DNA of 64,000 bases, from assembly GCF_018326285.1 (NCBI RefSeq), contig NZ_AP023362.1:5270001-5334000 (forward strand), in the 5' to 3' direction. The position numbers and the translations under genes were made by a program. Below the pieces are notes generated by a model. The model was given only the letters and a program-made list of their open reading frames with translations. It did no database searches and was not told the DNA's origin. Of this stretch, positions 5,396 to 58,516 are shown piece by piece; position 1 is the stretch's first letter; each line of letters opens with the position of its first letter. Source of the stretch: Mycolicibacterium sp. TY81. GTDB taxonomy: Bacteria; Actinomycetota; Actinomycetes; Mycobacteriales; Mycobacteriaceae.

Positions 5396-5444
5396 GATTT
5401 GTGCACGAAAATCCGCGGTAGGCGCGGATTTTCGTGCACAAATC
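5396..5444. repeat. 49-bp palindromic element, copy 1 (intergenic)
   Basis: Perfect 22-nt inverted repeat (5396-5417 / 5423-5444) with loop GTAGG. The arm starts GATTTGTGCACG, continues AAAATC and ends CGCG. It occupies almost the whole gap between convergent stops at 5390 and 5445; the last two arm bases belong to the stop codon of the minus-strand gene. Here it could act as a bidirectional terminator, but the same 49-bp layout recurs inside two coding genes (26054-26102, 58033-58081), so it is a dispersed element. Confidence 0.9.
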
Positions 5445-5814
5445 ACTTGCGGAGGCGAGCCAGGCCGCGCCAGCCGAGCAGGAAGACGGCGGTGACGGTC
5501 GAGGCGACGATCACGAAACTCACCGCGACGCCCTGAGCCGAGGCCTTGCGCAGCAGCATGCCGATCACGATGGTGCTGACCCAGACCACCAACCCGGTCG
5601 GGTTCAGCGCGGTTGGGCGGCGCCAGCCCCGCGCCAGCGCCCAGCCCGCCACGGTTCCGGTCAGGAACGGCCAGCTGGTGTGCGCCACACCGGCCAGCGT
5701 GATGCCCTCGGCGTGGCTGCGCCGGCCGATGGAGCAGAAGATCACCACCAACACCACGTCGGTGAGGAAAGCCAGTGCGGCACTGCGATTTCCGGTGGTC
5801 TGCTCAGTTGTCAT
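5443..5814 (-). CDS. DUF3054 family membrane protein
   Basis: A 123-residue integral membrane protein with four predicted TM helices (about residues 13-30, 43-62, 73-88, 98-117) and conserved polar features of DUF3054: an F(S/C)xIGRRSH motif in the first loop, then W-P-F and NPTGLxVW. The ATG at 5814 overlaps the end of the M23 lipoprotein gene by 11 nt, so it is the last gene of a YbhN-M23-DUF3054 operon. The function of DUF3054 is unknown. Its stop codon overlaps the palindromic element. Confidence 0.8.
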   Translation of the reverse strand: MTTEQTTGNRSAALAFLTDVVLVVIFCSIGRRSHAEGITLAGVAHTSWPFLTGTVAGWALARGWRRPTALNPTGLVVWVSTIVIGMLLRKASAQGVAVSFVIVASTVTAVFLLGWRGLARLRK

Positions 5815-7015
5815 AGGTCATCACGTCCAGATTCAGTGGGCTGACATTGTTTTCGGCGCGGGCGGTGAAGCCGGGTTCCGGACGCGCGGGACCGCCGGCC
5901 TCCAGCGCGTCGACGGCTGCCATGTTGGCCAGTCGGTCGGTGAGCCGGAACGAGCGGAACACGAACGGCAGGCCGTCCGCGCGCAGTGGATCGGGTGCGC
6001 TCATCACGTGGAAATGCAGGTGCGGCGCACTGGAATTGCCGGTGTTGCCGACGTTGCCCAGCACCTGCCCGGTGGTCAGCCGGTCACCCGGCTTGACCTT
6101 GACGCTGCCGGTCTTCAGATGCGCGTAGAAGGCGAAGTTTCCGTTCCCGATGTCCTGGACGACGTGATTGCCGCCGTACTGCGCCAGCGTGAGGCCGGTC
6201 GGGTCGACACCCGGCACCTGCTCGGGCAGGCCGTCGAGAACCGCCACCACCGGGCCGTCGGCGACCGCGTGCACGTCCGAGCCGAAGTAGAGGTAGCTGT
6301 CCGTTTTCGCGCGGTCCCCGCTGAACAGCTGCCCGTCGGCCCGTAGCTGCTCGTAGTCGATGGCGAATCGCTCTGCGGCCCAGAGTTTTCCATCGATCGG
6401 GTTGAGGGCCATGCGGTGCGGCGTCATGTCGCAACAGCCGTTGGCGTCGAGCCAGCCGGAGCCGCGCAGCGGCGGGTCGAGTACGACGGGCTTGTGGTCG
6501 GACACCGTCACGGGTGCGACGTTCTCGGTCACCACCGGTGGCACGAGCGGCGGCATCGGCTTGGGTACCTTGACCACCACCCGGTGTGAAAGTTGCTGGG
6601 GCGCAGCGCCACCCGCGTCCAGTTTGACGTCCAGCCAGACGATCGACCGTTGTCCGGGCGCCAGATCGTTGCTGCTGATGCGGGTGCCCATGGTCCGCGT
6701 CCAGTAGGCGAGGCCGGCGCCGGACAGTTGCAGCAGGGGCCCGGCGGGTCCCAGGACGGCGATCGAATCCACGGTCACGGGTTCGGGGGAGGTGTTGGTC
6801 AGCAGCAGCTCGTATGCGAGATGCACCTTCCCGTCGGTCGCCGGAACGGGCACGGGTTCGGCCACGACGTCGACGAGGACGGGCGTGACGATCGGCTCGG
6901 CGCCTATGGAAGTCGTTGCGGGAGTAGAAGACTGGACCGATTTCGGTGCCGTCGTGCAGGACGTCAGCGCGGCGGCGAGCAGCAGTGCCGCCGCCGGCCG
7001 GCTACCCGGGATCAT
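5804..7015 (-). CDS. M23-type peptidase-like lipoprotein
   Basis: A 403-residue exported lipoprotein. The ATG at 7015 begins [20 protein letters not shown], a short signal peptide with a lipobox (LTSC, Cys20); the longer frame start would add Pro/Arg-rich residues lying inside the upstream gene. The N-terminal half is a beta-rich domain. The C-terminal half has the LytM/M23 fold: HAVADGPVVAVLDG, GNHVVQDIGNGNFAFYAHL, then GNVGNTGNSSAPHLHFHV. The HLHFH metal/catalytic His pair is present; the upstream zinc-binding HxxxD motif is less obvious, so activity is uncertain. Likely role: cell-wall peptide cleavage or an inactive scaffold. The start overlaps the YbhN gene by 14 nt. Confidence 0.8.
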   Translation of the reverse strand: MIPGSRPAAALLLAAALTSCTTAPKSVQSSTPATTSIGAEPIVTPVLVDVVAEPVPVPATDGKVHLAYELLLTNTSPEPVTVDSIAVLGPAGPLLQLSGAGLAYWTRTMGTRISSNDLAPGQRSIVWLDVKLDAGGAAPQQLSHRVVVKVPKPMPPLVPPVVTENVAPVTVSDHKPVVLDPPLRGSGWLDANGCCDMTPHRMALNPIDGKLWAAERFAIDYEQLRADGQLFSGDRAKTDSYLYFGSDVHAVADGPVVAVLDGLPEQVPGVDPTGLTLAQYGGNHVVQDIGNGNFAFYAHLKTGSVKVKPGDRLTTGQVLGNVGNTGNSSAPHLHFHVMSAPDPLRADGLPFVFRSFRLTDRLANMAAVDALEAGGPARPEPGFTARAENNVSPLNLDVMTYDN

Positions 7016-8165
7016 GCGAGGTCTCGGGGTCGGCGGGCGGCACACCCGGTGCGGGGGAAGGGGTTTCGGGCGCATCCGGGTCGAAGTCCTTCTCCGTGCG
7101 GAACAGGAAGAAGAACACCACCCAGCCGATGGCCGAGATGAAGATCCAGCTGACCAGTCGATAGATCAGCATCGTCGAGATGGCCGCCGCGAGCGTCATG
7201 CCGCTGGACACCAGGCCGGGCACCAGCACCGCCTCGACCACGAGCAGCCCGCCGGGCATCAGGGGAATCGCGCCGACGGCGCGGGCCGCGGCATACGCGA
7301 CAGTCAGGCCGGCCAGCGACGGATGCCCGCCGGTGGCGTACGCCGCGCAGGCCAGGCACGCGACGTCGGCGATCCAGTTGAACAGCGACCAGCTGAATGC
7401 GACGGTCAGGGTCCGGCGGCTCAGGCTCACCGACTCCAGCTGGTTCAGGGTGCGGCGCCAGCCTTCCAGCCCGGTGTCGGCGGGCTTACCGCGCAGCGAG
7501 TTGAACCACGACAGCAGCCGCACGCCGATGCCGTCGATCTGCTGCGGATTGGCGGCGACGGTCTGGGCCAGTAGCAGCAGCGCCACGAAACCGCCGATCG
7601 TGAAGATCAGCGACAGCGGGTTCTTGCTCGCGCCGAGCAGGAACGCGCCGCCCAGGCCCAGCAGGGCCAACCCGACCACCTGCAGGGCCCCGGACATCAC
7701 CAGCTGCCACGAGGCCACCAATGGCGAGGCGCCCCACAGCCGCTGCTGGCGGTAGACGAAGGTGGCCGAGAGCACTGGGCCGCCCGGCAGGGTGGTGGAC
7801 AGCGCGTTGCCCGCGTAGAACGCGGCCTCGGACCGCCACTGCTTGACCTGGACACCGGCGGACCGGAGCAGGGTGCGCTGAATCTGCGCGAAGCTGTGCA
7901 TCGAGGCCAGGGCCGCGACGGCCGCGGCGGCGACCCACCACCACGTCGCCGACAACAGGCTGCGCCACGCCTTGGCGAGCTGCTCCCAGACCATCACGAC
8001 CTCGACGGTCAGCACGACGACGGCGATACCGATCAGAACCCAGCGCAACCACCAGTACTTGCCGCGGGGCCGGGCCGGTGCCGAACGGGCATCGGCGCGC
8101 CGGCACGCCGCCCAGAGGCCGCGACGGCGGGCCGTCAAAGACCCGGGGGCAGCCTCGTGTGACAC
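7002..8165 (-). CDS. YbhN/LPG-synthase-type membrane protein (Rv0204c-like)
   Basis: A 387-residue polytopic membrane protein of the lysylphosphatidylglycerol synthase TM-domain (YbhN, UPF0104) family. After a basic 35-residue cytoplasmic N-terminus come about eight TM helices. Family hallmarks are the [20 protein letters not shown] segment (around residue 125) and [20 protein letters not shown] near the C-terminus. The GTG at 8165 is the only start giving the whole first helix. The tail after residue 355 is acidic and Pro-rich. It corresponds to Rv0204c; transport or flipping of a lipid is a family-level guess. First gene of a three-gene minus-strand operon, divergent from the AI-2E permease. 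Confidence 0.85.
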
Positions 8166-8264
8166 CGCTACAGCGTATCCGGCGTGTCGCGGGCGGCTCG
8201 CCGTACGCGGCCCGCATGGCGCAACGACCCCGCGGTGTCATCGGGCGGCGCTACGCTGGCGCCC

Positions 8265-9437
8265 ATGTCACAAGCCGACGAAGCGGTAGATCCGGTGGTA
8301 CGCAAGGCCGCAGCCTGGTCGTGGCGGTTCTTGGCGATCTTCGGCGCGGTGCTCGCCGTGCTGTGGATCGTCATCAAGCTCGAGGTCATCGTGGTGCCCG
8401 TGCTGCTGGCCATGTTGGCCACGGCCTTCCTGCTGCCGGCCGTGGACCTGCTGACCCGGCGCGGTCTGCCGCGCGGCGCGGCCGTCGCGGTGATGCTGCT
8501 GAGTTCCATCGTGGTGATGGGCGGCATCCTGACGTTCGTCGTCTTCCAATTCATCGACGGCGCACCGGCTTTGGTGGAGCAGGTCACCAAGAGCATCGAC
8601 GGCGCCCGCAAGTGGCTGACCGAGGGCCCGATCCTGCACCTGAGCGCCGACCAGATCAACAGCGTCGGCCAGACCGCCATCGATGCCCTCAAGAACAACC
8701 AGTCCAAGCTCACCAGCGGGGTCTTCTCCACCGCCGGCGCGCTGACCGAGATCGTCACCGGCCTGCTGCTGACCCTCTTCACCCTGATCTTCCTGCTGCA
8801 CGGCGGGCGGGACATCTATGCGTTCGTCACCAAGATCATCCCGTCGTCCGTGCGGGACCGGGTGCGCGAGGCCGGCCGGGCCGGATTCGGCTCCCTGATC
8901 GGATACGTCCGCGCCACGTTCGTGGTGGCGATGGTCGACGCCGTCGGTATCGGCACCGGTTTGGCGATCATGGGGGTGCCGCTCGCGCTGCCGCTGGCGT
9001 CGCTGGTGTTCCTCGGCGCGTTCGTCCCGCTGGTCGGTGCGGTCGTGACCGGTTTCGTGGCCGTGGTGGTGGCACTGATCGCCAAGGGCTGGATCTACGC
9101 GCTGATCGCGCTCGGCCTGATCATCGCCGTGCAGCAGCTGGAGGCGCACGTGCTGCAGCCGATCGTCATGGGCCGTGCGGTGTCGGTCCACCCGCTCGCC
9201 GTCGTGCTGGCGATCGCCGGCGGCAGCGTCACCGCAGGCGTCATCGGCGCGTTGATCGCCGTGCCCATCGTCGCATTCCTCAACAGCGCCATCCGGGTGC
9301 TGACCGCTGACAATCCACGCGCCACCGAGGCCGAGGTACTCGCCGAGGCCGGTTCGGTCGCGGCCGCGGCGGTGTCGCCGGGGGACACGCCGCCAGCTAC
9401 AGACGGCCCTCCCGGCGCAGCAGATCCGCAGCGCTGA
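8265..9437 (+). CDS. AI-2E family transporter (Rv0205-like)
   Basis: A 390-residue membrane protein. ATG 8265 (MSQADEAVD) is preferred over the longer start at 8184, which would add an Arg-rich stretch unlike the family. Eight TM helices with the typical layout: two at the N-terminus, an extracytoplasmic helical segment (about 85-150), a hairpin, then [49 protein letters not shown] and [22 protein letters not shown], the family signature. Members include AI-2 exporters and Na+/H+ antiporters, so the substrate is unknown. The last 41 nt overlap the end of mmpL3 on the other strand. Confidence 0.88.
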
Positions 9438-12375
9438 CCCCGCCGCCGGTGCCGCGACGCTGAGTTTCGGCGGTATCGATCTTCTCGGTGGCGTCAGGGG
9501 TGTCGGCCGGCTGGGCGCGGAACGCCGTGGTCGGCTCGTTGCCCTGGTCGCCGGGTGCGTCTGACGGCGTCTGAATCTGCGGCCCGGAGGCGCTGATGTT
9601 GCCGCGCAGCTGCCCGAGCCACGACTCGATCTCCCGGTTGCCCGGACCGCCCTGACCCTGGCCCGGCTCGGCGGGACGGCCCGCTCCCGGCGCGCGGAAC
9701 GCCGTGGTGGCGGGCTCGGAGGCCGGACCGAAGGCGGTGGTCGCCGGGTCGCCGATCGCGGTGGTCGGCGGCGTCGGGTCCCCGTTCTGCGGGGTGACGG
9801 CGCGGGTCACGTTCGACACCACGTTGCGGAAGGCGCCCTTGGCGGCGCTGAACCGCGTGGTCGCGGGTTCAGCAGACGAGGGTGCGGGCGGGGCCTGCGG
9901 TGCCGGGGGCTGCGGCGGAGCGCTCGGCATCCGGTTGGTGGGTGCCTGGCTCGGCGGCTGCGGCTGCCCCGGGGTGATCCGGGTCGGGACGGCGCGCTGG
10001 CCGGGGGCCGGATGCGTGGGATCGTGCGGCGGGCGGACCGGGGCACCGGAACCGACCAGCGCACGGGGATCCTCGGGTTCGCGGACCGCGGGACGCTTGC
10101 GCTCGTCGGGCAGCTCGGTCTCGCCGAGACCCAGCTTCTGCTGAACGCGCTTCATCCACAGCGGCGCCCACCAGCAGTCGTCGCCCAGCAGCTTCATGAC
10201 GGCCGGCACCAGGAACATGCGGATGACGGTGGCGTCGAGCAGCAGCGCCATCAGCAGACCGAATGCCAGGTACTTCATCATCACCAGGTCGGAGAACGCG
10301 AAGGCGCCGACGACGACGGCCAGCACCAGCGCGGCGCCGGTGATCAGGCGGCCCGTGGTGGCGGTACCGATCCGGATGGCCTCGGCGGTGGACATGCCGC
10401 GCTCGCGGGCCTCCACCATGCGGGACACCAGGAACACCTCGTAGTCGGTCGACAGACCCCAGATGACCGCGATGATCAGGCCGATCATCGGCGCCATCAG
10501 CGGCTGCGCGGTGTAGTTCATCAACCCGGAGCCGTGCCCGTTCTCGACGAACATCCAGGTCAGGATGCCCATGGTCGAGCCGAGGGTGAGGGCGCTCATC
10601 AGGGCGGCCTTGATGGGCAGCACCAGTGAGCCGAACGCCAGGAACATCAGGACGGTCGTGGTGATCACCAGGATCGCCACCATCAGCGGCAGTTTCTCGA
10701 ACAGCGTGCTGATGCTGTCCTGTTCGAGCGCTGGGGTGCCGCCGACCATCACCTGGACGCCGTGCGGTTCCTGCAGGGCGCGCAGTTCGTTGATCTTCTC
10801 GCCGGCGTCACCGCTGTTGATGAGGCCGTTGGACAGCACCCGGACGGACGGGTCCTTGCTGCCGCCCTCCTGGTACGTCCGCTCGGCCCACATCTTCGAC
10901 TTGTCGTTGCCGTCCGGCGTCACGAAGCCGCTGATGGTGCCGGCGTTGGCCCGCACCTGGGCGATCTGCTGATCGGTGACGGGCTGGCCGTTGTCGCTCT
11001 TGATGACGAGGGTCAGGGCGTTGGTGCGGAAGCCGGGGAAGAGCTGGTCGAACTCCTCCTGCGCGGTACGGACCGAGTTGTCCGGCGGCAGGTACTTCTC
11101 GCTCATACCGGCGAGGGCCAGCTGTCCCAGTGGGATGACCAGCAGGATCATGCCGATGGTGATCGGCACGGCGAATGCCAGTGGCCGTTTCATCACGACG
11201 TTGACCAACTTGCCCCAGAAGCCCTTCTCGACCTCTTCGCGGGTCTTGGTCTTCTGCGTCTTCTCGGCGAACCAGTCGATGATCTTGCGCGAGAACGGCC
11301 AGTTGGCCAGGAACGGCACCTTCAACAGGGTGCGCACACCGAGCGCGTCGACGTTGGAACCCAGGATGCCCAGCACTGCGGGCAGCACGGTGTTCGACAG
11401 GAACGCGGCCAGCAGCACCGACGCGATGATCGCGTAGGTGATGGACCGCAGGAAGCCCAGCGGGATCAGCAGCAGGGGCAGCGACGACGCGACGATGATC
11501 ACCGCGGAGAACGCGACGGTCCGGCCCGAGGTCATGACGGATCTTCGGACGGCCGCTTCGACGTCGTAGCCCTCGGCCAGTTCTTCTCGGAACCGGCTCA
11601 CGATGAACAGGCCGTAGTCGATCGCGATACCGAAGCCCATCATGGTCACGACCGGCTGGGCGAAGAAGTGCACGGGCCCGAACTCGGCGGTGAACCGCAG
11701 GATGCCGAGCGCGCCACCGATGGTCAGGCCACCGATGATGGCGGGCAGCGCGGCGGCGACCGCGCCACCGAACACGAAGAACAGGACGACCGCGACGAGC
11801 GGCACGATCGCGATCTCGGCGCGTTTCTGGTCGGTGCCGATGGTGCCGGTCAGCTCGCTCGCGAGCGGCTCCAGACCGGCCAGCTTGATGTTGCCGCCGT
11901 TGACCTTGTACAGGTCAGGGGCGACGGACTGGTAGTTCTTCAGGATCGCGTCGTCGTTGTCGCCCTTGAGCGGAACGGTGATGAAGGTGTGGCGCAGGTC
12001 CTGCGTCGTCATCTTCTTCAGCCCGTCGCTGGGCGCTTTCAGCCAGCCGACCCAGGCGACCACCTTGTCCTTGTGGTCGTTGACGAAGGTGTCCAGCTCG
12101 CCGCTGACCTTCTTCTGCCAGGCCGGGTCGGTGATCTTCTTGTCGTCGGGTGGCGTCAGGATGGCCACCACGAGGCTGGTCCGGTCGCGGCCGTAGACCT
12201 CGTCACCGAGCACCGAGGCGGCGACGGACTCGCTGCCTTCGTTGTAGAAGCCACTCTGCGTGACATGCTCGCCGAGACTGGACCCGTACACGGCGCCACC
12301 AAGGCACAGTGCGACCATGACACCGATCACTATGTATCGGAATCGGTACACCGTTCGACCCCACCAGGCGAACAC
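9397..12375 (-). CDS. mmpL3: MmpL3 trehalose monomycolate flippase/exporter
   Basis: A 992-residue RND transporter that moves trehalose monomycolate across the inner membrane for mycolic acid layer assembly; it is essential in mycobacteria. The ATG at 12375 has an AGGAG Shine-Dalgarno and the standard N-terminus [16 protein letters not shown]. Features: TM1; porter domain 1 (about 35-185); the TM2-6 bundle with [16 protein letters not shown] (Asp253-Tyr254); porter domain 2 (about 420-560); the second bundle with [17 protein letters not shown] (Asp644-Tyr645). These two Asp-Tyr pairs form the proton relay. The cytoplasmic tail from about 745 on is long and Pro/Ala/Thr-rich, with repeated TTAFxxxxxPATTAF-like motifs. 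Neighbours match Rv0205-mmpL3-Rv0207c. Confidence 0.97.
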
Positions 12376-12472
12376 GTCAGCTCCTCACGATTATCTGCAT
12401 AAATTTGAGCTCAAAGGCACCCTCTAAGAGGTTGCCATTTTCAGCCACCGCACACGTCATCTGTAGTTTTTC

Positions 12473-17178: not shown

Positions 17179-17195
17179 GGTTTTGGGGCGATCCA

Positions 17196-25090: not shown

Positions 25091-25648
25091 ATGGCCGTCA
25101 TCGACCCCACCAAGACCTGGGAACTGGTGGAGGAACGACTGTCGCGCACGACGAACGAGCGCCATCGCCAGGTCCTGGGCATCGTGCTCGAACACATGAA
25201 GGCGGAGGCCGTGCCGGACATGGATCGTCTGATGGCCACGTTGTCCCCGAACCCGGATTACCACTTCTGGTACGCCAACACCGACATGGGCCCGAAGACC
25301 ACCGAAGGCGTGCGCGCCTATTACGAGGCGTTCGTGGCCAGCGGCGCGAATCATCTCGTCTTCGAGGTCGATCGCCTCGCCGTCGACGATGATCTGGTGA
25401 TGACCGAAGGCTGGATGAAGATGATCTACCCGGGCGCGTCCGCGCAGGCCATCGGCGTCGACGTCGACGACCCGAACGGCGACTACCTGCTGGTGTTCCG
25501 TCAGCTGATCAACTGGCCGATCGACGCCGACGGCCTGATCATCGGCGAGGACGCGTATCAGACCGGCCCGGTCAGCGTCACCAAGCTCGGTGTGGCAGAC
25601 CTGCCGCAGGCGTACATCGACCAGAAGGCCGCCGCCGCCAATGCCTGA
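25091..25648 (+). CDS. SnoaL/NTF2-like protein
   Basis: A 185-residue soluble protein. ATG 25091 follows GAGGAGT at the right distance; the longer frame from 24884 covers the promoter region. Helix-strand order and the segment PDMDRLMATLSPNPDYHFWY...GVRAYYEAFVASGANHLVFEVDRLAVDDDLVMTEG match the SnoaL-like/NTF2 cone fold, which includes ketosteroid isomerases and small hydratases. As first gene of an operon with FadD17-like, KstD-like and KshA-like genes, it may act on a steroid intermediate, but no catalytic residue can be assigned with certainty. Its stop overlaps the next start by eight nt. Confidence 0.75.
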   Translation: MAVIDPTKTWELVEERLSRTTNERHRQVLGIVLEHMKAEAVPDMDRLMATLSPNPDYHFWYANTDMGPKTTEGVRAYYEAFVASGANHLVFEVDRLAVDDDLVMTEGWMKMIYPGASAQAIGVDVDDPNGDYLLVFRQLINWPIDADGLIIGEDAYQTGPVSVTKLGVADLPQAYIDQKAAAANA

Positions 25649-27323
25649 GCGCCGCGAGGACATCGCAGCCCTGCTGCTCGACCGCCTCGGCGACGAGCGG
25701 CTGGGGCTGCGGACCCGGGACCAGGACTGGACCTGGGACGAGGTGGTCCGCGAGTCCGCTGCCCGCGGCGCGTACGCCGCCGAACTGCGGGCTGACGGGC
25801 CGTTTCACATCGGCGTCCTGCTGGACAACGTGCCCGACTTCATCTTCTGGTTGGGCGGCGCCGCGCTGTCCGGGGCGACGATCGTCGGCATCAACCCGAC
25901 GCGCGGCAACACGGAACTGGCCGGCGAGGTCCGCCATGCGGACTGTCAGCTGATCGTCACGGATTCGGCTGGGCGGGAACGGCTTACGGGCCTCGACCTC
26001 GGGCTGACGCCCGACCGCATGCTCGTCGTCGACGACCCCGCCTACCAAGAAGCGATTTGTGCACGAAAATCCGCGGCCGGCGCGGAAAATCGTGCACAAA
26101 TCGCTGTGGCAGACGGCGTTGGCGCCGAAACGCTGATGCTGCTGCTGTTCACCTCCGGCACGACGGGCGCGTCGAAGGCCGTCAAGTGCAGCCAGGGTCG
26201 GCTGGCGTGGATCGCCTACTCGGCGGTGGACAAGTTCAACCACGTCCGCGACGACGTCGACTACTGCTGCATGCCGCTGTTCCACGGCAACGCCATCATG
26301 GCGCTGTGGGCCCCGGCGCTGGCCGTCGGCGCGACCGTCTGCCTGACCCCGAGCTTCTCGGCGTCCGGCTTCCTGCCCGACGTGCGCTATTTCGGCGCGA
26401 CGTTCTTCACCTACGTCGGCAAGGCACTCGGCTATCTGCTGGCCACCCCGGAACTGCCCGACGATGCCGACAACCCGCTCAACCGCGGGTTCGGCACCGA
26501 GGCCTCACCGGAGGACCAGGCCTACTTCAAGCGCCGGTTCGGCGCGGAGCTGTACGAGGGGTACGGCTCCAGCGAGGGCGGCGGCGCCGTCGTACTCGAC
26601 CCGAACCAGCCCGAGGGGGCACTCGGCCGTCCCGCCCATCCGGGTGTCGCGATCGTCAACCCAGAAACGATGATCGAGTGTGTCCCAGCGGTTTTGGACC
26701 GACACGGCCGCATCCTCAATCCGGACGAAGCTGTCGGTGAGATCGTCGACAAGCTCGGCACCAAGAAGTTCGAGGGCTACTACAAGAACGACTCCGCCGA
26801 CGCCGACCGCATCCGAAACGGCTGGTACTGGACCGGCGACCTGGGTTACCTCGACGAGAACGGCTTCATCTACTTCGCCGGCCGGCGCGGCGACTGGATC
26901 CGGGTCGACGGCGAGAACACGTCGGCCCTGTCGATCGAGCGTGTGCTGCGGCGCCATCCCGAGGTGATCGCCGCCGGGGTGTACGCGGTGCCGGACCCCC
27001 GCTCGGGCGATCAGGTGATGGCAGCCATCGAGGTCGCCGACCCTATCCTGTTCGACGTCGACAAGTTCGTGCAGTACCTGAACGACCAGGACGACCTCGG
27101 CAAGAAGGGCATGCCGCGGTTCCTGCGGATTTCGGATTCGTTGCCGGTCACCGGCTCCAACAAGGTGCTCAAGCGCGAACTGCAGGCGGACAAGTGGCAC
27201 ACCGACGAACTGGTGTACCGCTGGGTGGGTCGGGGCGTACCGGTTTACGGCCTGATGTCCGACGATGCCAAGCGCGCGTTGGACGATGAGTTCACGCAGT
27301 ACGGACGGCAGCGATACCTATAG
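25641..27323 (+). CDS. Acyl-CoA synthetase FadD17-like, with in-frame palindromic insert
   Basis: A 560-residue ANL enzyme resembling FadD17 (Rv3506 of the cholesterol region). ATG 25641 overlaps the previous stop. Motifs: LLLFTSGTTGASKAVKC (A3), ELYEGYGSSEGG (A5), GWYWTGDLGYLDENGFIYFAGRRGDWIRVDGENTSAL (A7-A8) and the C-terminal VTGSNKVLKRE with the catalytic Lys. Just before A3, residues 138-155 (AICARKSAAGAENRAQIA) are encoded by the 49-bp palindromic element at 26054-26102, which lengthens a surface linker without breaking the frame. Expected substrate: a steroid-derived or long-chain acid. The KstD gene follows after 11 nt. Confidence 0.87.
   Translation: MPERREDIAALLLDRLGDERLGLRTRDQDWTWDEVVRESAARGAYAAELRADGPFHIGVLLDNVPDFIFWLGGAALSGATIVGINPTRGNTELAGEVRHADCQLIVTDSAGRERLTGLDLGLTPDRMLVVDDPAYQEAICARKSAAGAENRAQIAVADGVGAETLMLLLFTSGTTGASKAVKCSQGRLAWIAYSAVDKFNHVRDDVDYCCMPLFHGNAIMALWAPALAVGATVCLTPSFSASGFLPDVRYFGATFFTYVGKALGYLLATPELPDDADNPLNRGFGTEASPEDQAYFKRRFGAELYEGYGSSEGGGAVVLDPNQPEGALGRPAHPGVAIVNPETMIECVPAVLDRHGRILNPDEAVGEIVDKLGTKKFEGYYKNDSADADRIRNGWYWTGDLGYLDENGFIYFAGRRGDWIRVDGENTSALSIERVLRRHPEVIAAGVYAVPDPRSGDQVMAAIEVADPILFDVDKFVQYLNDQDDLGKKGMPRFLRISDSLPVTGSNKVLKRELQADKWHTDELVYRWVGRGVPVYGLMSDDAKRALDDEFTQYGRQRYL
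26054..26102. repeat. 49-bp palindromic element, copy 2 (inside coding gene)
   Basis: Left arm 26054-26075, loop GCCGG, right arm 26081-26102. Outer GATTTGTGCACG and inner CCGCG pair perfectly, but the six bases between them read AAAATC in both arms, so the arms mismatch there: the left arm is of copy-1 type, the right arm of copy-3 type. With flanking GC on both sides the added block is 51 or 53 nt; the gene frame remains open. Confidence 0.9.
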
Positions 27324-50938: not shown

Positions 50939-50998
50939 TCCGAGCGTGCGCTCAGATCGGGGATCTGGCCTGCAGGACGATCTGTCCGCACATTGGCG
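50939..50998. repeat. CAGATCG-type palindromic repeat, copy B1
   Basis: Inner core GTGCGCTCAGATCG (50946-50959) pairs, with two mismatches, with CGATCTGTCCGCAC (50978-50991) across an 18-nt middle. Outside this core the arms hardly pair. Part of the 439-nt gap between the tiny protein and the 73-residue gene; apart from the repeats and the hairpin at 51093-51150 this gap shows no gene. Confidence 0.6.
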
Positions 50999-51019
50999 AA
51001 GATGTACGGCCGCGTTGAT

Positions 51020-51079
51020 CACGAGCGTGCAGCCAGATCGAAGATCGGGCGAGAGGTGCGATCTGAGTGCACCCTCGTG
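51020..51079. repeat. CAGATCG-type palindromic repeat, copy B2
   Basis: Left arm 51020-51040 (CACGAGCGTGCA...CAGATCG) pairs with right arm 51059-51079 at 18 of 21 positions; middle 18 nt. This is the best-preserved copy and shares its geometry with 17196-17257 and 50939-50998. Confidence 0.7.
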
Positions 51080-51092
51080 GCGGGCAACGAGA

Positions 51093-51150
51093 CGAGCAGA
51101 CACAAAACTGCCCCCACTCCGAGGAGTAGGGGCAGTTTTGTGTCTGCTCG
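51093..51150. terminator. 28-bp hairpin downstream of the 73-residue gene
   Basis: Arms 51093-51120 and 51123-51150 pair at 27 of 28 positions with a two-base centre; the core is CACAAAACTGCCCC. It begins nine nt beyond the stop (51160) of the minus-strand gene and could terminate it. Its length is unusual for a plain terminator, and it adjoins the palindromic repeats. Confidence 0.7.
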
Positions 51151-51159
51151 CGGAGAAAA

Positions 51160-51381
51160 TTAGCCGGCGTTCTCCAGCGCGACGAGCGCGGCCGCGACGG
51201 CGAAGTACTTGTTGGAGCCGAGCTGGCGCACGGTCTTGATGTTGAATGCCGCGGCGAGGTGCTCGGCGTCGGAGTCACTGACCCCGGCCAGCGCGGCGGG
51301 CGATGCGTCGAGGATGTCCTTGAGGGACTTGTCCTCATATGCCTTGTCGAGCGACTTGTCGAGATCCACAGAGACAGCCAT
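51160..51381 (-). CDS. Conserved small protein, 73 residues
   Basis: ATG 51381 (MAVSVDLDKSLDKAYEDKSLKDILD) follows GGGAGGAAA. The protein is helical, acidic at the N-terminus; residues 27-70 (SPAALAGVSDSDAEHLAAAFNIKTVRQLG, then KYFAVAAALVALE) resemble a helix-hairpin-helix-like module in pattern. No known function. It looks like a genuine small soluble protein, strongly expressed judging by its Shine-Dalgarno and the strong hairpin after it. Confidence 0.75.
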   Translation of the reverse strand: MAVSVDLDKSLDKAYEDKSLKDILDASPAALAGVSDSDAEHLAAAFNIKTVRQLGSNKYFAVAAALVALENAG

Positions 51382-51556
51382 ACGTTTCCTCCCAGATTGT
51401 TTGCCAGACCTTCGGACGGGCGTGACGCTATCAGCGTTCGCTGGGCGCCGCCTGGGATAAAACACCTGTGCTGAAAAGCCGAATGGCCACCCGGCCGAGT
51501 CCCCCGAGGGGCGAAGGACAAGGCGCGGATGGCCATCCGGACGAAGGCAGTACTGC

Positions 51557-53029: not shown

Positions 53030-53060
53030 GGCCGTCACACTACCCAGTTTTCGGCCAAAC

Positions 53061-53074
53061 GAGAACATGTTCCA
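53061..53074. promoter_or_regulatory. KstR-like operator upstream of aldehyde dehydrogenase
   Basis: GAGAACATGTTCCA keeps the AACATGTT core of the KstR motif and differs from the perfect site at 45272 in two outer bases. It is 32-45 nt upstream of the ALDH start, in a suitable place for repression, and just beyond the stop of the methyltransferase gene (53085). Confidence 0.7.
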
Positions 53075-53084
53075 ATTAGGTCAT

Positions 53085-53867
53085 TCAGCTGGGCTGGAGC
53101 ACCAACACCAGGTTGCTCGTCAAGAACTCCTGTAACACCGGTACAGAAGTCGCACGCCAGGCCCATCGCGGGTGGTAGCGGGGAAATGCGGCGACCAGCG
53201 CCCCAGTGCTGCGCGCCCACTCCAGGCCAGCCGCGGCCGATACCGCGAACAACGACGATCCGTAGTCGTTCTTCGGCCGGTGGCCGTGTTTGCGGGTGTA
53301 CATCTCGGCGGCCCGCCGGCCGCCGAGGTAGTGCGTCAGCCCCATCTCGTGGCCGCCGAAGGGACCCAGCCACACCGTGTACGACAGGATCACCAGCCCG
53401 CCCGGCCGGGTCACCCGCAACATCTCCCGGCCCATCAGCCACGGTTCGCGGACATGCTCGGCGACGTTCGACGACAGGCAGACGTCGACGCTGCCGTCGG
53501 CGAACGGCAGGGCCATGCCCGAGGCCCGCACGAAGGTGCCGGCGCCGTCGGGTTGGGCGGCCGGGCCGGCATGCATCTCCCGGGGGTCGGGCTCGACACC
53601 GATGTATGTCATTCCGGCGCTGGAGAATTCGGTGGCGAAGTAGCCGGGACCGCCGCCGACGTCGAGCACCGTGGCGCCGTCGGGTGCGGCTCCGTTGAGA
53701 TCGCGCCACAGGCCGTCCACCAGGGCGACGGTGTCCCGGGCGAGGCCGCCGTAGAAGCGGGCCGGGTCGCTCTGCTCGAAACGGAACTCGCTGAGCAGGC
53801 GGATCGAGCGGGCGAGGGTGGCCCGCTCACGCGTGATGACCAGTCGTTTGGCTGCCCAGCGATTCAC
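53085..53867 (-). CDS. SAM-dependent methyltransferase (Rv0224c-like)
   Basis: A 260-residue class I methyltransferase. Motif I is ATVLDVGGGPGYFATEF (residues about 65-81), motif II acidic YIGVEPDPREM, motif post-II LPFADGSVDVCLSSNVAEHVREP (Methyltransf_11), and GGLVILSYTVWLGPFGGHEMGL follows. The N-terminal 40 residues (RFEQSDPARFYGGLARDTVALVDGLW) are typical of mycobacterial glycolipid-type methyltransferases. Corresponds to Rv0224c; the substrate is thought to be an envelope molecule but is not established. Divergent from the GT4 gene with 33 nt between. Confidence 0.88.
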   Translation of the reverse strand: MNRWAAKRLVITRERATLARSIRLLSEFRFEQSDPARFYGGLARDTVALVDGLWRDLNGAAPDGATVLDVGGGPGYFATEFSSAGMTYIGVEPDPREMHAGPAAQPDGAGTFVRASGMALPFADGSVDVCLSSNVAEHVREPWLMGREMLRVTRPGGLVILSYTVWLGPFGGHEMGLTHYLGGRRAAEMYTRKHGHRPKNDYGSSLFAVSAAAGLEWARSTGALVAAFPRYHPRWAWRATSVPVLQEFLTSNLVLVLQPS

Positions 53868-53900
53868 TCCGCAACCCTACTGACCGGTACCCTTCATTCG

Positions 53901-55088
53901 ATGCCAGACCACCCCCAGCAACCCGCTGGATCTCCTGACGAGATCCGGTCGGTGCTGCTGCTCTGCTGGCGGGACACCGGCCATCCCCAGGGCGGCGGTA
54001 GCGAGACGTATCTGCAGCGCATCGGCGCGCAACTGGCCGAGTCCGGGGTGCGGGTGACGCTGCGGACGGCGCGCTATCGCGGGGCGTCGCGCACCGAGGT
54101 CGTCGACGGCATTCGGATCAGTCGCGGCGGCGGCCGGCTGTCGGTCTACATCTGGGCCGGGCTGGCCATGGTGCTGGCCCGTGTCGGGCTGGGTCCGCTG
54201 CGCGGCGTCCGGCCGGATGTGGTGATCGATTCGCAGAACGGCATCCCCTTCCTGGCTCGCTTGGCCTACGGCCGGCGCGCGATGGTGCTGGTGCATCACT
54301 GCCACCGCGACCAGTGGCCGGTAGCTGGGCGGTTCATGAGCAAGTTCGGCTGGTTCGTGGAGTCGCGGCTCTCGCCCCGGCTGCACCGCAACAACCAGTA
54401 CGTGACGGTGTCACTGCCGTCGGCCCGGGACCTGGTGGACCTGGGTGTCGACGCTTCGCGGATCGCCGTCGTCCGCAACGGGGTCGACCTCGCTCCGGCG
54501 GCGTCCCTCGCGCTGCCCCGCGCTGCCGAGCCGCGCATCGTGGTGCTGTCGAGACTGGTGCCGCACAAGCAGATCGAGGACGTGCTCGACGCCGTCGCGC
54601 TGCTGGCGCCGGTGGTGCCGGGACTGCGCCTGGACGTCGTCGGCGGCGGCTGGTGGGACGAGCGGCTGGTCGCCCACGCTCGCCGGCTCGGTATCAGCTC
54701 GGCGGTCACGTTCCACGGCCAGGTCGACGAGGCCACCAAACACGAAGTGCTGCAACAGGCTTGGGTCCACGCGCTGCCGTCGCGCAAGGAAGGCTGGGCG
54801 CTGGCCGTCATCGAGGCCGCCCAGCACGGTGTGCCGACGGTCGGCTACCGGTCCTCGGGCGGCCTGACCGACTCGATCGTCGATGGGGTGACGGGCCTGC
54901 TGGTCGATGACCATCGCGGTCTGGTCACGGCGCTCGAGACTCTGCTGACCGACGCCGTCCTGCGCGACGAGCTGGGTGCCAAGGCGCAGGTGCGGGCGGC
55001 CGAATTCTCGTGGCCGCAAAGCGCTTCCGCGTTGCGGACCGTTGCCGAAGCGGTCCGGGACGGCAAGTTCGTCAACGGGATCGTCTGA
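53901..55088 (+). CDS. GT4-family glycosyltransferase (Rv0225-like)
   Basis: A 395-residue GT-B glycosyltransferase. ATG 53901 (MPDHPQQPAGSPDEIRSVLLLCWRDTGHPQGGGSETYLQ) starts 33 nt from the divergent methyltransferase; the open frame from 53172 is antisense to it. The N-terminal GGGSETYLQRIGAQLAE loop is the donor/acceptor glycine motif; the C-terminal Rossmann domain has RIVVLSRLVPHKQIEDVLDAV and SRKEGWALAVIEAAQHGVPTVGYRSSGG, the E-x7-E nucleotide-sugar motif. It probably adds a sugar to a lipid-linked acceptor on the cytoplasmic side. Matches Rv0225. Confidence 0.88.
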   Translation: MPDHPQQPAGSPDEIRSVLLLCWRDTGHPQGGGSETYLQRIGAQLAESGVRVTLRTARYRGASRTEVVDGIRISRGGGRLSVYIWAGLAMVLARVGLGPLRGVRPDVVIDSQNGIPFLARLAYGRRAMVLVHHCHRDQWPVAGRFMSKFGWFVESRLSPRLHRNNQYVTVSLPSARDLVDLGVDASRIAVVRNGVDLAPAASLALPRAAEPRIVVLSRLVPHKQIEDVLDAVALLAPVVPGLRLDVVGGGWWDERLVAHARRLGISSAVTFHGQVDEATKHEVLQQAWVHALPSRKEGWALAVIEAAQHGVPTVGYRSSGGLTDSIVDGVTGLLVDDHRGLVTALETLLTDAVLRDELGAKAQVRAAEFSWPQSASALRTVAEAVRDGKFVNGIV

Positions 55089-55392
55089 CGTCGCATCCGG
55101 GCCGCGCAGTACTGCCGCCGGGCGTCCACGCCCACCCCGGAAATTCTGCGTGACGGCCAGCCAAATCTGCCGTTTTGCTGTTGGACACCGCCGGGCCGCA
55201 TAAACTGACGGCCAAGTCAAATTTAATAGCAATGAGGGCCGCCCTTCGGGTTCCGGCTTTCGGGTGTCCCTCGAATTTTGCGGATCCAGGCAACTGGGCC
55301 CGGTGATGCAGTGCGTTCGAACTCCGTTCTCATTCAATGTAATTGGATATTCCGCTCCATCGATGTCCCACCAGGTCTGAGGAGTTGAGCAT
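55089..55392 (+). promoter_or_regulatory. Non-coding region before the sugar transferase gene
   Basis: This 304-nt gap has markedly lower GC than its surroundings between about 55200 and 55370 and holds no ORF with protein-like content. It includes a GAGGAG Shine-Dalgarno at 55379-55384. A weak CCGCCCTTCGGG-type hairpin lies near 55240. It is probably a long 5' leader or promoter; no specific operator is recognised. Confidence 0.4.
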
Positions 55393-55408
55393 GTGGAGTT
55401 GCCGATGA
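55391..55408 (+). CDS. Possible 5-codon leader peptide MWSCR
   Basis: ATG 55391 lies six nt after GAGGAG, the best-spaced start after this Shine-Dalgarno, and reads Met-Trp-Ser-Cys-Arg-stop. Its TGA (55406-55408) overlaps the in-frame ATG 55405 of the sugar transferase as ATGA. It may couple or attenuate translation; it may equally be chance. Confidence 0.3.
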   Translation: MWSCR

Positions 55409-56874
55409 CGCTTTCGACGTTCGGGCTCACCCGGCTTCCGAGTTCACGCACGGTCTGGCAGCCGCATTACGCGCGTCGCGTGCTGATCACCGATGCCGTG
55501 GCCATCGTCCTCGCGATGCTGTTCGCGCAATGGGTCCGATTCGGCGGAGCGGGTTACGGCCCTTCGGCCTCCATGCTCTATACCGGGTACTCGCTGGTGC
55601 TGGCCTGCCTGTGGCTGGGCGTCCTGAACTTGCATCACGCCCGCTCCGCGTCGATCCTCGGCTGTGGCATCGAGGAGTATCGCCGCGTGGTCGCCGCGTC
55701 CTTCTGGACGTTCGGCGTGATCGCGATCGTGGCCCTGCTGGCGCGGCTCGAGATCGCACGCGGTTACCTGGCCTTGGCCTTCCCGCTGGGCACCATCGGG
55801 CTGCTCATCGGCCGCAAGCTGTGGCGGCGCCGGGTTCGTGCCCGCCGGCATGCGGGCGAATGCCTGACATCTGTTCTCGCCATTGGTGATCGGGACGCCA
55901 TCGCGGTCCTCGCGACCGAGCTCATGAACGATCCCGGCGACGGTTACGTGGTGGTCGGCGCCGGCATCCCGGGCGACCCGGGCGCGCGCGGTGACGTCAT
56001 CAGGATCGGGGACCGGGTGATCCCGATCTTCGGCGACGAGAACGACGCCCTCGGCGCGCTCGGCGACCGCTGCGCCGCCGACACCGTGGCGCTGACCGAC
56101 GCCGAACATTTCGGTGTCGCCGGAATCCAGCGGCTCACCTGGCGCCTCGAGGCGTCCGACGTCGACCTGGTGGTGTCGCCCGGCCTGCTCGACGTGGCGG
56201 GCGCGCGGCTGGCGATGCGGCCGGTGGCCGGCATGCCGCTGCTGCACGTGGAGAAGCCGCAGTACCACGGTGCCAAGAGCTTCCTGAAGAAGGCGTTCGA
56301 CTTCGGATTCGCGCTGGCGGCGCTGATCGGGACGGCGCCGCTGCTCGTGCTCACGGCCATCGCCATCAAGATGACGAGCCGCGGTCCGGTGTTCTACCGG
56401 TCGGAACGCATCGGGTTGGACGGTGAGCCGTTCACCATGATCAAGTTCCGCAGCATGGTGGTCGACGCGGAGGAGCGGCTCGACGACCTGCTCCCGTCGA
56501 ACGAGATGGCCGGCGGCGTCATGTTCAAGATGCGCGACGATCCGCGGGTGACACTGATCGGAAAGGTGTTGCGCCGCTACAGCATCGACGAGCTTCCGCA
56601 GTTCATCAACGTGCTCAAGCAGGACATGAGCGTCGTCGGACCCCGGCCGCCGCTGCGCCGGGAGGTCGAGACCTACAACGGCGACATCAGGCGCAAGCTG
56701 CTCGTCAAACCGGGCGTGACAGGGCTCTGGCAGATCAGCGGCCGGTCCGACCTCACGTGGGACAAGGCTGTGCGCCTTGACCTTTCGTACGTCGACAACT
56801 GGTCGATGCTCACCGACGTCGGGATCATCCTCAAGACGTTGACGGTGGTGGCACGCGGCGACGGGGCGTACTGA
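55393..56874 (+). CDS. Polyprenyl-phosphate sugar-1-phosphate transferase (WbaP/CpsE type)
   Basis: A 493-residue membrane protein. GTG 55393 (MELPMTLS) or ATG 55405. Four to five N-terminal TM helices (residues about 30-145), a CoA-binding-like middle domain (VLAIGDRDAIAVLATELMND...), a further TM helix near 300, then the bacterial sugar transferase domain: KMTSRGPVFYRSERIGLDGEPFTMIKFRSMVVDAE, YSIDELPQFINVLKQDMSVVGPRPPL and KPGVTGLWQISGRSDLTWDKAVRLDLSYVDNWS. It transfers a sugar-1-phosphate onto decaprenyl or undecaprenyl phosphate to start a glycan. It is inserted between the Rv0225 and Rv0226c orthologues, suggesting an added glycan branch. Its end overlaps the converging gene by 44 nt. 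Confidence 0.9.
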   Translation: MELPMTLSTFGLTRLPSSRTVWQPHYARRVLITDAVAIVLAMLFAQWVRFGGAGYGPSASMLYTGYSLVLACLWLGVLNLHHARSASILGCGIEEYRRVVAASFWTFGVIAIVALLARLEIARGYLALAFPLGTIGLLIGRKLWRRRVRARRHAGECLTSVLAIGDRDAIAVLATELMNDPGDGYVVVGAGIPGDPGARGDVIRIGDRVIPIFGDENDALGALGDRCAADTVALTDAEHFGVAGIQRLTWRLEASDVDLVVSPGLLDVAGARLAMRPVAGMPLLHVEKPQYHGAKSFLKKAFDFGFALAALIGTAPLLVLTAIAIKMTSRGPVFYRSERIGLDGEPFTMIKFRSMVVDAEERLDDLLPSNEMAGGVMFKMRDDPRVTLIGKVLRRYSIDELPQFINVLKQDMSVVGPRPPLRREVETYNGDIRRKLLVKPGVTGLWQISGRSDLTWDKAVRLDLSYVDNWSMLTDVGIILKTLTVVARGDGAY

Positions 56875-58516
56875 GTCCCCGCCACCGCTGAACGGCCATC
56901 GCGGCCAGGGCGCCGATCAGCATGCCCAACCACACCACGTGCGCGGCGACCAGCAGCGCCCGACCAGACGCCGCGGGCGTCGTCCCGCCCACGCGGTACA
57001 ACGCAATGTCGTTGTCCCGGTAGGCAATCGGTAGCGAAAGCGGGGGAGCCGAGCCCTCCACGACCACCCAGCCAACCCCAGCCGCGGCCAACTGGTGCAC
57101 GTCGGCGCCCCGCAACAGCAGGTCCTGGACGCGCCGAGCCCGCACGCCTTCGCCCGGCACGGTCCGTCCGCCGATCACGAGGTCCCCGGTCGCCAGCACG
57201 TCGGCGGAAACCCAGCGGGGCAGCGGGTCCAGCACCGCGGCGGGGCCGGCCCAGGGGAACTGCCGGATGACGTCGGGCGGCAGCACCGCAACGGGTTTGG
57301 GGTCGGAATTGATCTGTGCTGCAACCGAATACCAGCCGGCTGGGTATTGCACCGACCGCAGCTGGCCGCCGACGCCCCAGACCAGGTCGGGCAGTGCCGC
57401 CAGCACCACCACGCAGCAGCCCGCGGCAGCGAAAGCCGTTGGCAGCCAGCGTCGCAGCACCGCCACCGCGGCGGCTCCGGCCAGGGCATAGCCCGGCATC
57501 GCCAGCGCCACCCACTTCTGGCCGTCGCGCAGCACACCGGTGCTGGGCGCGGTCCGGATCAGCCAGTCGAGGAATGCCGACCCGGGATCGGTCGCCAGCA
57601 GCGCGGGCACCACCACGGCGACGACCGCGAGCACCAGCAGCGGCCGCGCCGCGGCCACGGACCACGCCTTCCGCGCGCCACAGGCCACCACGGCCAGCAG
57701 CGCGACGGTCCCGACCAGGGCCCACAGCGTCGTGCGGGACGCCGGTATCGCGCCCGCGTTCCAGATGCCACCGAGCCCGGCCAGGCTGCCCAGCGTCCCG
57801 AGTCCCGGCTCTGCCCGCGCCGCGAACGCCGGCACCCCGGCGCTCGCCACCGGCAGCACCGAGCGGGCGACGACCGTCGCCACCAGCCAGGGCAGCGCGG
57901 CTCCGACCGACGCGGCCAACGCCACCCACACACCGCGCCAGGTCCGCGAACACACCAGCGCCACGACCAGCGCCAGCAGCAGACCCGTCGGCGTCAGCCC
58001 GGCCAGCGCCACCCAAAACACCAGGCCCCAGGGATTTGTGCACGATTTTCCGCGCTCACCGCGGAAAATCGTGCACAAATCACTGGAGAGGGCGACCCAC
58101 GGCAGGCAGCCGTAACCGACCAGCAGGCTCCAGTGCCCCTGCAACAGGCGCTCGGCGACGTAGGGGTTCCACACAGCGACGGTGACGGCCACCAGCTGTC
58201 CGCCGAGACCGGCGTCCAGCACCGCGGCGGCCAGCTTCGCCGCGCCCCAGCCGGCGAACCACAAGCCGAGGATCGTCAGCGCCTTGACCAGCACGCCGCC
58301 GTCGACGACGGGCGAGAGAACGGCCAGGAAGAAGTCCTGCGGCAGGGCCCGGGGTGCGGCCTCGGACAGGCCCAGGGCAGCGTCGGACAGGTAGGACCGC
58401 GGCGTCGAGACCGCGTCACGCAGCAGCAGATAACCGGGCGCCAGCAGTGGCGCGGTGACAGCGAGCGTCAGCCCCAGCGCGTACAGCGCCGGCAGGGCAC
58501 GACGAAAAGCGATCAG
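56831..58516 (-). CDS. Polytopic membrane protein (Rv0226c-like) with in-frame palindromic insert
   Basis: About 561 residues if it starts at 58516; no ATG/GTG/TTG exists in frame before GTG 58294, yet the 74 codons upstream encode conserved-looking sequence (LAPGYLLLRDAVSTPRSYLSDAALG...PQDFF) as I remember it in Rv0226c (576 residues). A CTG at 58516-58514 overlaps the Rv0227c stop as CTGA. Around ten TM helices, with LQGHWSLLVGYGCLPWVAL early and a C-terminal periplasmic-like part (VGWVVVEGSAPPLSLPIAYRDND). Residues DLCTIFRGERGKSCTN come from the 49-bp palindrome (58033-58081). Likely a GT-C-like or envelope-polymer protein; role unproven. Confidence 0.75.
   Translation of the reverse strand: MIAFRRALPALYALGLTLAVTAPLLAPGYLLLRDAVSTPRSYLSDAALGLSEAAPRALPQDFFLAVLSPVVDGGVLVKALTILGLWFAGWGAAKLAAAVLDAGLGGQLVAVTVAVWNPYVAERLLQGHWSLLVGYGCLPWVALSSDLCTIFRGERGKSCTNPWGLVFWVALAGLTPTGLLLALVVALVCSRTWRGVWVALAASVGAALPWLVATVVARSVLPVASAGVPAFAARAEPGLGTLGSLAGLGGIWNAGAIPASRTTLWALVGTVALLAVVACGARKAWSVAAARPLLVLAVVAVVVPALLATDPGSAFLDWLIRTAPSTGVLRDGQKWVALAMPGYALAGAAAVAVLRRWLPTAFAAAGCCVVVLAALPDLVWGVGGQLRSVQYPAGWYSVAAQINSDPKPVAVLPPDVIRQFPWAGPAAVLDPLPRWVSADVLATGDLVIGGRTVPGEGVRARRVQDLLLRGADVHQLAAAGVGWVVVEGSAPPLSLPIAYRDNDIALYRVGGTTPAASGRALLVAAHVVWLGMLIGALAAMAVQRWRGLSTPRRRVPPPSTS
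58033..58081. repeat. 49-bp palindromic element, copy 3 (inside coding gene)
   Basis: Perfect 22-nt inverted repeat (58033-58054 / 58060-58081), loop CTCAC. The outer GATTTGTGCACG and inner CCGCG equal copy 1, but the middle reads ATTTTC rather than AAAATC. Flanks are GG before and AC after, as at copy 1. Sits between TM segments of the Rv0226c-like protein, adding about 17 codons with no stop. Confidence 0.9.

Follow-up and report, generated by a model that had tools for sequence, protein, structure and literature searches.

The window that we analysed, 64,000 nucleotides of the chromosome of Mycolicibacterium sp. TY81, contains three palindromes of identical design, each with a loop of 5 nt between arms of 22 nt, and their positions and dimensions on the window sequence are those given by the original prediction (Table 1). 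All three belong to a large family of 49-bp palindromes that is present in roughly one in two of the mycobacterial genomes sampled. Their 53-nt units are predicted to fold as RNA with energies of -37.0 to -39.8 kcal/mol (z -8.1 to -11.5), and the window gave no Rfam match at the gathering threshold. The arms had been described as conserved across the three copies, which is correct for their outer and inner parts, but the arm middle reads either AAAAT or ATTTT and the arms are not identical; copy 2 combines one AAAAT and one ATTTT arm, resulting in a 3-nt internal mismatch. Similarly, copy 1 does lie between genes, but the DUF3054 gene derives its TGA stop from one end of the element, and its convergent neighbour stops 5 nt off.

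Table 1. The three palindromes and their host or neighbouring genes, in window coordinates.
Feature	Position	Strand	Remarks
Hemophore-related gene (TIGR04529, PF16525)	5019..5390	+	Stop 5 nt left of copy 1
Copy 1, 49-bp palindrome (53-bp core 5394-5446)	5396..5444		Between convergent genes
DUF3054 gene (PF11255)	5443..5814	-	Own TGA stop formed with the end of copy 1
Steroid-22-oyl-CoA synthetase CasI	25641..27323	+	NF052587, 1019 bits, cut-off 900
Copy 2	26054..26102		In frame in CasI/FadD17 gene, translated ICARKSAAGAENRAQI
MmpA-family trehalose lipid delivery protein	56831..58294	-	NF053599, 512 bits, cut-off 210
Copy 3	58033..58081		In frame in MmpA-family gene, translated DLCTIFRGERGKSCTN

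The whole-genome arm search proposed with the prediction returned 51 copies with exact outer arms on the host chromosome, far beyond the three of the window, and none with a reversed control pattern. A superfamily pattern, GATTT-N15-CG-N5-CG-N15-AAATC, matched in 71 of the 147 sampled genomes of the genus, and several subtypes coexist in single genomes. Neither this wider superfamily nor the placement at stop codons described below had featured in the original prediction.

The element is built from a 12-bp outer stem, a loose middle, a 6-bp inner stem and a 5-nt loop, and its length is 49 bp in all 186 distinct exact-arm copies; in a search that allowed loops of 1-12 nt, 941 of 987 matches within the genus had a loop of five. 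The predicted size of 49 bp is that of the palindrome itself, but the conserved unit is 53 bp long, since a G at -2 (C at +2) flanks it on 97% of 372 sides. Both ends are alike (G-B-GATTT). As had been anticipated, loops vary while arms are kept: among 50 host paralogues the pairwise difference is 0.012 at the inner CCGCG and 0.58 in the loop. Strict pairing along the whole 22-bp stem was ruled out at positions 13-16, where arm types occur as expected under independence (TT 25, AT 13, AA 2, vs 24.8, 13.4 and 1.8) and a shuffle test of middle pairing gave 57/1000. Readability as protein, which had been put forward for the element, was rejected as a maintained property, 98 of 187 copies being open in all six frames.

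There are copies that lie in frame within genes, and the residues that they encode are missing from element-free orthologues, which exist for both CasI and the MmpA family. The CasI/FadD17 copy is present in 9 species and the MmpA copy in 5; species counts from our scan of named genomes are lower bounds (at least), biased to exact arms. An addition of about 17 codons had been expected; the CasI copy occupies 16 codons, but the net gain relative to element-free orthologues is only 8, so that about 8 were replaced. Given the exact-arm bias, constraint was tested only at sites found through the gene. In CasI, none of 8 third positions in the outer arms varies among 9 species, vs 240 of 330 in the flanks (P 3e-5), the pairwise difference in the loop being 0.41; in AccD3 the figures are 0/8 vs 253/482 (P 0.003). 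This third-position invariance of the outer arms in both genes is indicative of constraint or homogenisation acting at the nucleic-acid level. The empty CasI allele of CBMA234 is unlikely to be a product of simple excision, as it resembles other element-free alleles; in gene trees it adjoins the bearers, so that allele exchange and repeated gain are inseparable.

The prediction of a dispersed family was borne out, with sites occupied in one species and vacant in another. At orthologous loci the same site is empty, carries another subtype or carries an unrelated hairpin, depending on the species. Another 49-mer takes the place of the element at L051 in llatzerense, and other hairpins do so at L003 in lyk4, at L203 in llatzerense (GAGTGGCCAC), at L058 in CBMA226 (GAGCAGTCGTG) and at L048 in CBMA234. 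Four intergenic sites have species that lack the element and show nothing obvious in its stead, namely L002 (an empty site in CBMA226), L203 (the host and ST-F2), L044:6255 (CBMA234 and OTB74) and L054:5027 (OTB74, porcinum, septicum and senegalense); L005 in canariasense and L036:1511 in J2 are further element-free cases. The comparisons establish, at the level of sequence, a dispersed element with outer arms held constant as nucleic acid, and the family seems to have been gained at, and swapped between, sites by some mobilising mechanism.

Placement relative to genes, as called by a simple in-house caller, was scored for 180 copies, counted per species with orthologous sites counted repeatedly and copies less than 300 nt from a locus end dropped: 101 lie between convergent genes, 57 in same-strand settings, none between divergent genes and 21 in ORFs. 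A stop codon is located at most 10 nt away in 141 of the 159 intergenic copies. A survey of 400 kb found divergent and convergent junctions to be equally common (65 each). A strong hairpin was seen at 7 of these convergent junctions, a figure to be read as at least 8, one heterotypic element copy or more having been missed by the scan; most such junctions thus manage without one.

We see about an even chance that the family is one of dispersed palindromes copied by a putative mobiliser and kept mainly as two-way 3'-end hairpins. Copies would reach new sites by a putative copying process. Most of those retained would be at stop codons, since the hairpin, working both ways, would there form the transcript 3' end of one or both neighbours, serving as a U-less, 'I-shaped' terminator or as an mRNA end protector; inside genes, linkers or loops would accommodate the element, with ribosomes preventing the RNA from folding. 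The excess at convergent over divergent junctions and the closeness to stop codons argue for this reading, as do the hairpin energies, the other hairpins found in place of the element at orthologous gene ends, the empty L002 site of CBMA226 and the constancy of the arms in CasI, AccD3 and the host paralogues. Against it count the many convergent junctions that have no strong hairpin, the persistence of intragenic copies across several species, the four intergenic sites with unreplaced element-free species, and the absence of a U-tract after the hairpin, which mycobacterial RNA polymerase reportedly requires, to go by the title of a 2014 study by Czyz. A more specific form of the reading, which we advance tentatively, is that of a new class of mobile hairpin: a 53-bp palindrome of rigid register, recognised and placed at gene ends by a putative mycobacterial protein, that would give adjacent genes their stop codons as well as a 3' hairpin working in both directions, with arms homogenised per genome and a freely drifting loop. 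In the part of the literature cited here, I-shaped (U-less) mycobacterial terminators are hairpins without a U-tail at most 50 bp from the stop codon (PMC12288462), and a stable hairpin at that distance downstream of the stop, without U-tail, is what we find; those terminators are, however, a structural class, whereas ours are a repeat family with conserved sequence, length and arms that is also intragenic.

A fairly unlikely alternative is that the palindrome acts not as an RNA hairpin but as a dimer site for a sequence-specific protein with an architectural or regulatory role on the chromosome. Fixed outer arms and centre, rigid spacing, the lack of selection on middle pairing and the constraint within genes would all suit such a site, and so would the location of all 51 exact host copies on contig C1, where the first half has 14 and the second 37 (p 0.002). 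It accords poorly with the lack of any superfamily match in 76 of the 147 genus genomes, with the several subtypes per genome and with the replacement of the element by unrelated hairpins at some gene ends.

We regard as unlikely that the element is a MITE, in a minimal form of 49 bp, that descends from an insertion sequence of the DDE transposase type. It is small and non-coding with terminal inverted repeats, it has filled and empty sites, and 31 of 372 sides carry CTAG, rare at 0.27 per kb, at positions -5..-2. However, CTAG is partly a product of TAG stops and flanks none of the 186 exact-arm copies on both sides, nor are direct repeats of 3-4 bp in excess around them. With these copies pooled without age (k 2-9, offsets 0-7), no consistent target-site duplication emerged, the direct-repeat test yielding only slight excesses at 2 bp and, among many tests, a single outlier at 5 bp (3 vs 0.15), and target duplication, CTAG included, was rejected. 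In one ST-F2 allele, CTAG does stand at either side of the element. We saw no autonomous parent or insertion sequence with the same ends in 464 kb out of about 6.5 Mb, 14 of the 17 arm occurrences there lying in 7 full elements. Two exact element patterns had no match in viral contigs, and neither did one 65-base query, of limited sensitivity, in plasmids and phages at E 0.01. MITEs, ERIC and SPRITE elements, the last named in PMC10969869, are likewise non-autonomous and hairpin-forming, with some at gene ends; ours differ in lacking target duplication and, within the 464 kb, a parent insertion sequence, and are shorter than the MITE examples in the passages cited.

Spread by a REP-associated tyrosine transposase had been proposed originally, and we now consider it very improbable that the family is of REP/RAYT type with a Y1 HUH transposase as its mobiliser. 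REP elements are short dispersed palindromes at 3' ends with subtypes per genome and a foot tetranucleotide, GTAG, at one end. Our family shares their size, subtypes and preference for 3' gene ends, and its host copies are clustered, 12 of 50 neighbour gaps being below 10 kb vs 4.0 expected (P 6e-4); it differs in its rigid 49-bp length and in its symmetric ends, neither of which bears an asymmetric foot. A Y1 transposase was rejected as mobiliser for want of association with PF01797, which matches in 15 of the 71 genomes that have the element and in 12 of the 76 that lack it (Fisher p 0.52), the element conversely occurring in 15 of 27 Y1-bearing and 56 of 120 Y1-free genomes. G039 and G081, with 83 and 81 matches, fall outside the 27 genomes with Y1, and the two Y1 genes of the host lie on contigs C2 and C3, away from the 51 elements on C1. 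Least probable of all, ordinary gene-end hairpins that arose and diverged in place would explain the placement at stop codons and the orthologous sites frequently filled in sister species, but are contradicted by identical outer arms at 51 unrelated sites and disfavoured by in-frame intragenic copies and by sister species with empty sites or another subtype.

Rickettsia palindromic elements, which according to the cited part of PMC10969869 are about 150 bp long, form ten families and lie in ORFs in nearly half of the cases, also occur in frame within coding genes; in our family, from another phylum, the length is 49 bp throughout, 21 of 180 copies are in ORFs and the others are mostly at stop codons. 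The pair CGAAA(N)19TTTCG, presented in the cited text of PMC5217627 as palindromic, widespread among Mycobacterium genes and potentially novel, has a word spacing and order that the 49-mer does not fit. In one open library, GATTTGTGCACG as a full-text word retrieved no paper, six subtype words retrieved no title on mycobacteria among the matches listed, and thematic searches, among the matches listed, none that describes the family, which is not proof of its being unpublished.

According to the cited part of PMC12288462, it is a matter of dispute whether hairpins that lack a U-tract end transcripts in mycobacteria. The family offers about 940 natural hairpins of the same geometry in 71 of 147 genomes, and because these come with empty, swapped and intragenic alleles, the question of U-less termination becomes directly testable. 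It also displays what looks like nucleic-acid-level constraint within coding genes, and could be a lead to a recombinase or binding protein of the genus that is yet to be described. Among other genomes of the order, the superfamily pattern matched once each in 5 of 263, and one of the matches outside the genus is palindromic.

The three palindromes first recognized in the window sequence were recovered at their predicted positions, each with two 22-nt arms around a 5-nt loop. The arm design ascribed to all of them held for the outer GATTTGTGCACG and the inner CCGCG, which are constant, and failed for the middle five bases, which read either AAAAT or ATTTT; copy 2 carries one arm of each kind and therefore has a 3-nt internal mismatch in its RNA fold. 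A search with the exact outer arms returned 51 copies in the host genome (6.47 Mb, four contigs) and none for a control pattern, the total rising to 58 with up to three mismatches. All 51 exact-arm copies lie on contig C1, 14 in its first and 37 in its second half (p 0.002), and they are locally clustered, 12 of 50 neighbour gaps being shorter than 10 kb vs. 4.0 expected (P 6e-4). The middle arm types TT, AT and AA number 25, 13 and 2, vs. 24.8, 13.4 and 1.8 under independence (10 of 50 host copies with other types excluded). AAAAT and ATTTT (stem positions 13-17) are mutual reverse complements, and their assortment between arms is independent, as if each arm were a separate unit.

Locations of the 49-bp element and of other features discussed in the text
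Feature	Location	Remark
Copy 1	window 5396-5444	between convergent genes
Copy 2	window 26054-26102	in frame in the CasI/FadD17 gene
Copy 3	window 58033-58081	in an MmpA-family gene
Host exact-arm copy	C1:6024950	
Fourth host intragenic copy	L047:1552-1600	minus-strand ORF, 611 aa within this locus; common to ST-F2
AccD3 element	L054:1538-1586	two-domain junction of the AccD-AccA fusion
Intergenic site	L044:6255	
Intergenic site	L054:5027	
Palindrome in G341	G341:C331:61002-61050	genome from another family of the order
Host Y1 transposase genes (two)	C2:180401-180763; C3:20513-20863	off the main contig
Second long palindrome	window 51093-51150	unrelated; CGAGCAGACACAAAACTGCCCC..., fold -51 kcal/mol
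Third hairpin family	L097:7623; L190:3742	arms of GAGTGGCCACTTAT or GAGTGGCCACCTAT; close to gene ends

When the arms had to be exact and lengths of 44-54 bp were permitted, matches came from 9 of 148 genus genomes, that of the host included, and named species genomes hold at least 116 such stretches, with only Mycobacterium and Mycolicibacterium records among the matches listed. A looser superfamily pattern (GATTT-N15-CG-N5-CG-N15-AAATC) occurs at 941 places in 71 of 147 genus genomes, with 1 to 83 per genome, and comprises outer-arm subtypes such as GTGCACG, CGGCGTG, CGGCGCG, CGGTGTAG and GTGTGCG, several of which can be found within one genome. Across the order as sampled, this pattern matched 18 of 35 genomes of the genus vs. 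5 of 263 others, the latter with one match each; three of the four sequences inspected among these five are not palindromic. The fourth, in G341, is a palindromic 49-mer with GATTTCCGCGGAAAT arms and 20 of 22 stem positions paired, partly owing to the near self-complementarity of its 15-base end; its arm is absent among the genus matches listed, and it may be a chance palindrome or a distant relative.

We infer that the element serves as a two-way 3′-end hairpin, which is its best-supported function. Using gene calls from a simple codon-usage caller made for this analysis, a first set of 68 copies comprised 42 between convergent genes, 14 + 8 between same-strand genes, 4 inside ORFs and none between divergent genes; for 180 distinct copies the figures were 101, 38 + 19, 21 and 0, with one left gene uncalled, and convergent and divergent junctions are equally numerous (65 each) in 400 kb of the host. 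A stop codon lies within 10 nt of 141 of the 159 intergenic copies, and at 71 gene ends (gap -2) a T preceding GATTT lets the GA of the element complete a TGA stop. According to a review (PMC12288462), mycobacterial genes rely predominantly on U-less terminators of the “I-shaped” kind, no more than 50 bp from the stop; the same review cites work whose title states a U-tract requirement, and the element offers a natural test set for this dispute.

The length of the element is fixed: with 0-150 nt permitted between outer arms, all 186 distinct copies (available sequences with at least 12 nt of flank) measure 49 bp. When loops of 1-12 nt were permitted genus-wide, the matches rose only from 941 to 987, the 11 other loop lengths together adding 46, about the chance rate of genomes otherwise without matches. 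The flanking G at -2 (C at +2), present on 97% of the 372 sides, extends the conserved unit to 53 bp. For stem pairing, 139 copies (a subset of the matches listed, drawn from 17 genomes) were compared with shuffles confined to the same genome and subtype. Positions 6-12 pair at about 0.96, a small excess (0.959 vs. 0.950 shuffled, reached by 0 of 1000), and positions 17-20 at 0.82 (0.822 vs. 0.775, reached by 1 of 1000); at positions 13-16 the value is 0.66, with an excess not significant in this set (57 of 1000 shuffles). The element thus has an outer stem that pairs strictly, a middle that pairs loosely and an inner stem. The main rival reading is a binding site for a putative protein. A dimeric double-strand site would also give arms that match across subtypes; pairing alone is therefore no proof of an RNA hairpin.

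Intragenic copies allow constraint on the arms to be compared with that on coding flanks. The CasI/FadD17 set was collected via the gene, and hence with no bias to intact arms (full-length match in 12 of 15 named genomes). The element, a net gain of 8 codons, is present in nine species including the host, and orthologues lacking it were found in CBMA234, J2, canariasense, wolinskyi, G016 and G009. None of 8 third positions in its outer arms varies. The flanks show variation at 240 of 330 third positions, and at 34 of the 36 that in the host end in A or T. Third positions differ pairwise by 0.000 in the outer arms vs. 0.341 in the flanks, with 0.10 for inner arms (all positions) and 0.41 for the loop, and porcinum is the sole species with a replacement change, in one arm. 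In AccD3 the element is present in six species and absent from nine others; its outer arms are unchanged in all six (0 of 360 comparisons; variable third positions 0 of 8 vs. 253 of 482, P 0.003), and OTB74 carries at the same spot a different subtype (GATTTCGGCGCG), also of 49 bp. This fusion reads the palindrome in the frame used by CasI (ICARKSA..AENRAQI). The MmpA element is present in the host, lyk4, CBMA226, ST-F2 and OTB74 and missing in llatzerense, CBMA234 and nine others. Constraint is weaker here: a comparison of four bearers out of five gave an outer-arm difference of 0.043 vs. 0.123 in flanks, and none of 48 third-position comparisons differed. In gene trees with some weakly supported branches, element-free CBMA234 stands beside bearers for CasI, and for MmpA both llatzerense and CBMA234 fall among bearers. 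Allele exchange may explain these placements, as may repeated gain at a single spot. The 611-aa ORF with the fourth host copy has no NCBIfam match.

Empty intergenic sites likewise exist. At L002, filled in the host, llatzerense, ST-F2 and CBMA234 and degenerate in lyk4, the two convergent genes of CBMA226 join at CTAG. L203 is filled in lyk4 and CBMA226, empty in the host and ST-F2, and occupied by a different hairpin in llatzerense. The site L044:6255 is filled in the host, lyk4, ST-F2 and llatzerense (two with one arm base changed), decayed in CBMA226, without a copy in CBMA234 and OTB74, and of unrelated sequence in J2 and canariasense; the element at L054:5027 is present in six species and absent from OTB74, porcinum, septicum and senegalense. 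Other occupants include another 49-mer at L051 in llatzerense (GATTTCGGCGTG type) and a GAGCAGTCGTG hairpin at L058 in CBMA226. The orthologous L036 gene end shows four different inner arms in four species, a pattern that would fit genome-specific homogenization or replacement. Among host paralogues, positional difference is 0.58 in loops, 0.26 in the middle and 0.012 in the CCGCG arms; the copies are therefore old enough for loop drift, the arms being held meanwhile by selection or homogenization. Mobilization by a RAYT-type Y1 transposase (PF01797), proposed initially, found no support, the element occurring in 15 of 27 Y1-bearing and 56 of 120 Y1-free genomes (p 0.52). No consistent target duplication was found around copies, nor any viral, phage or plasmid match in the collections searched.

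A scan of 400 kb of the host, which missed at least one heterotypic element, scored strong hairpins at 7 of 65 convergent junctions vs. 0 of 400 random windows. Gene ends therefore carry several families of hairpins, the element being one of them, and most convergent junctions lack a hairpin. Elsewhere in the host and in CBMA226, gene ends bear hairpins (GAGCAGACGCAAAACTG, GAGCAGTCGTGAAAACCCCC) related to the second long palindrome of the window, and in llatzerense the third family takes a site where relatives carry the 49-mer.
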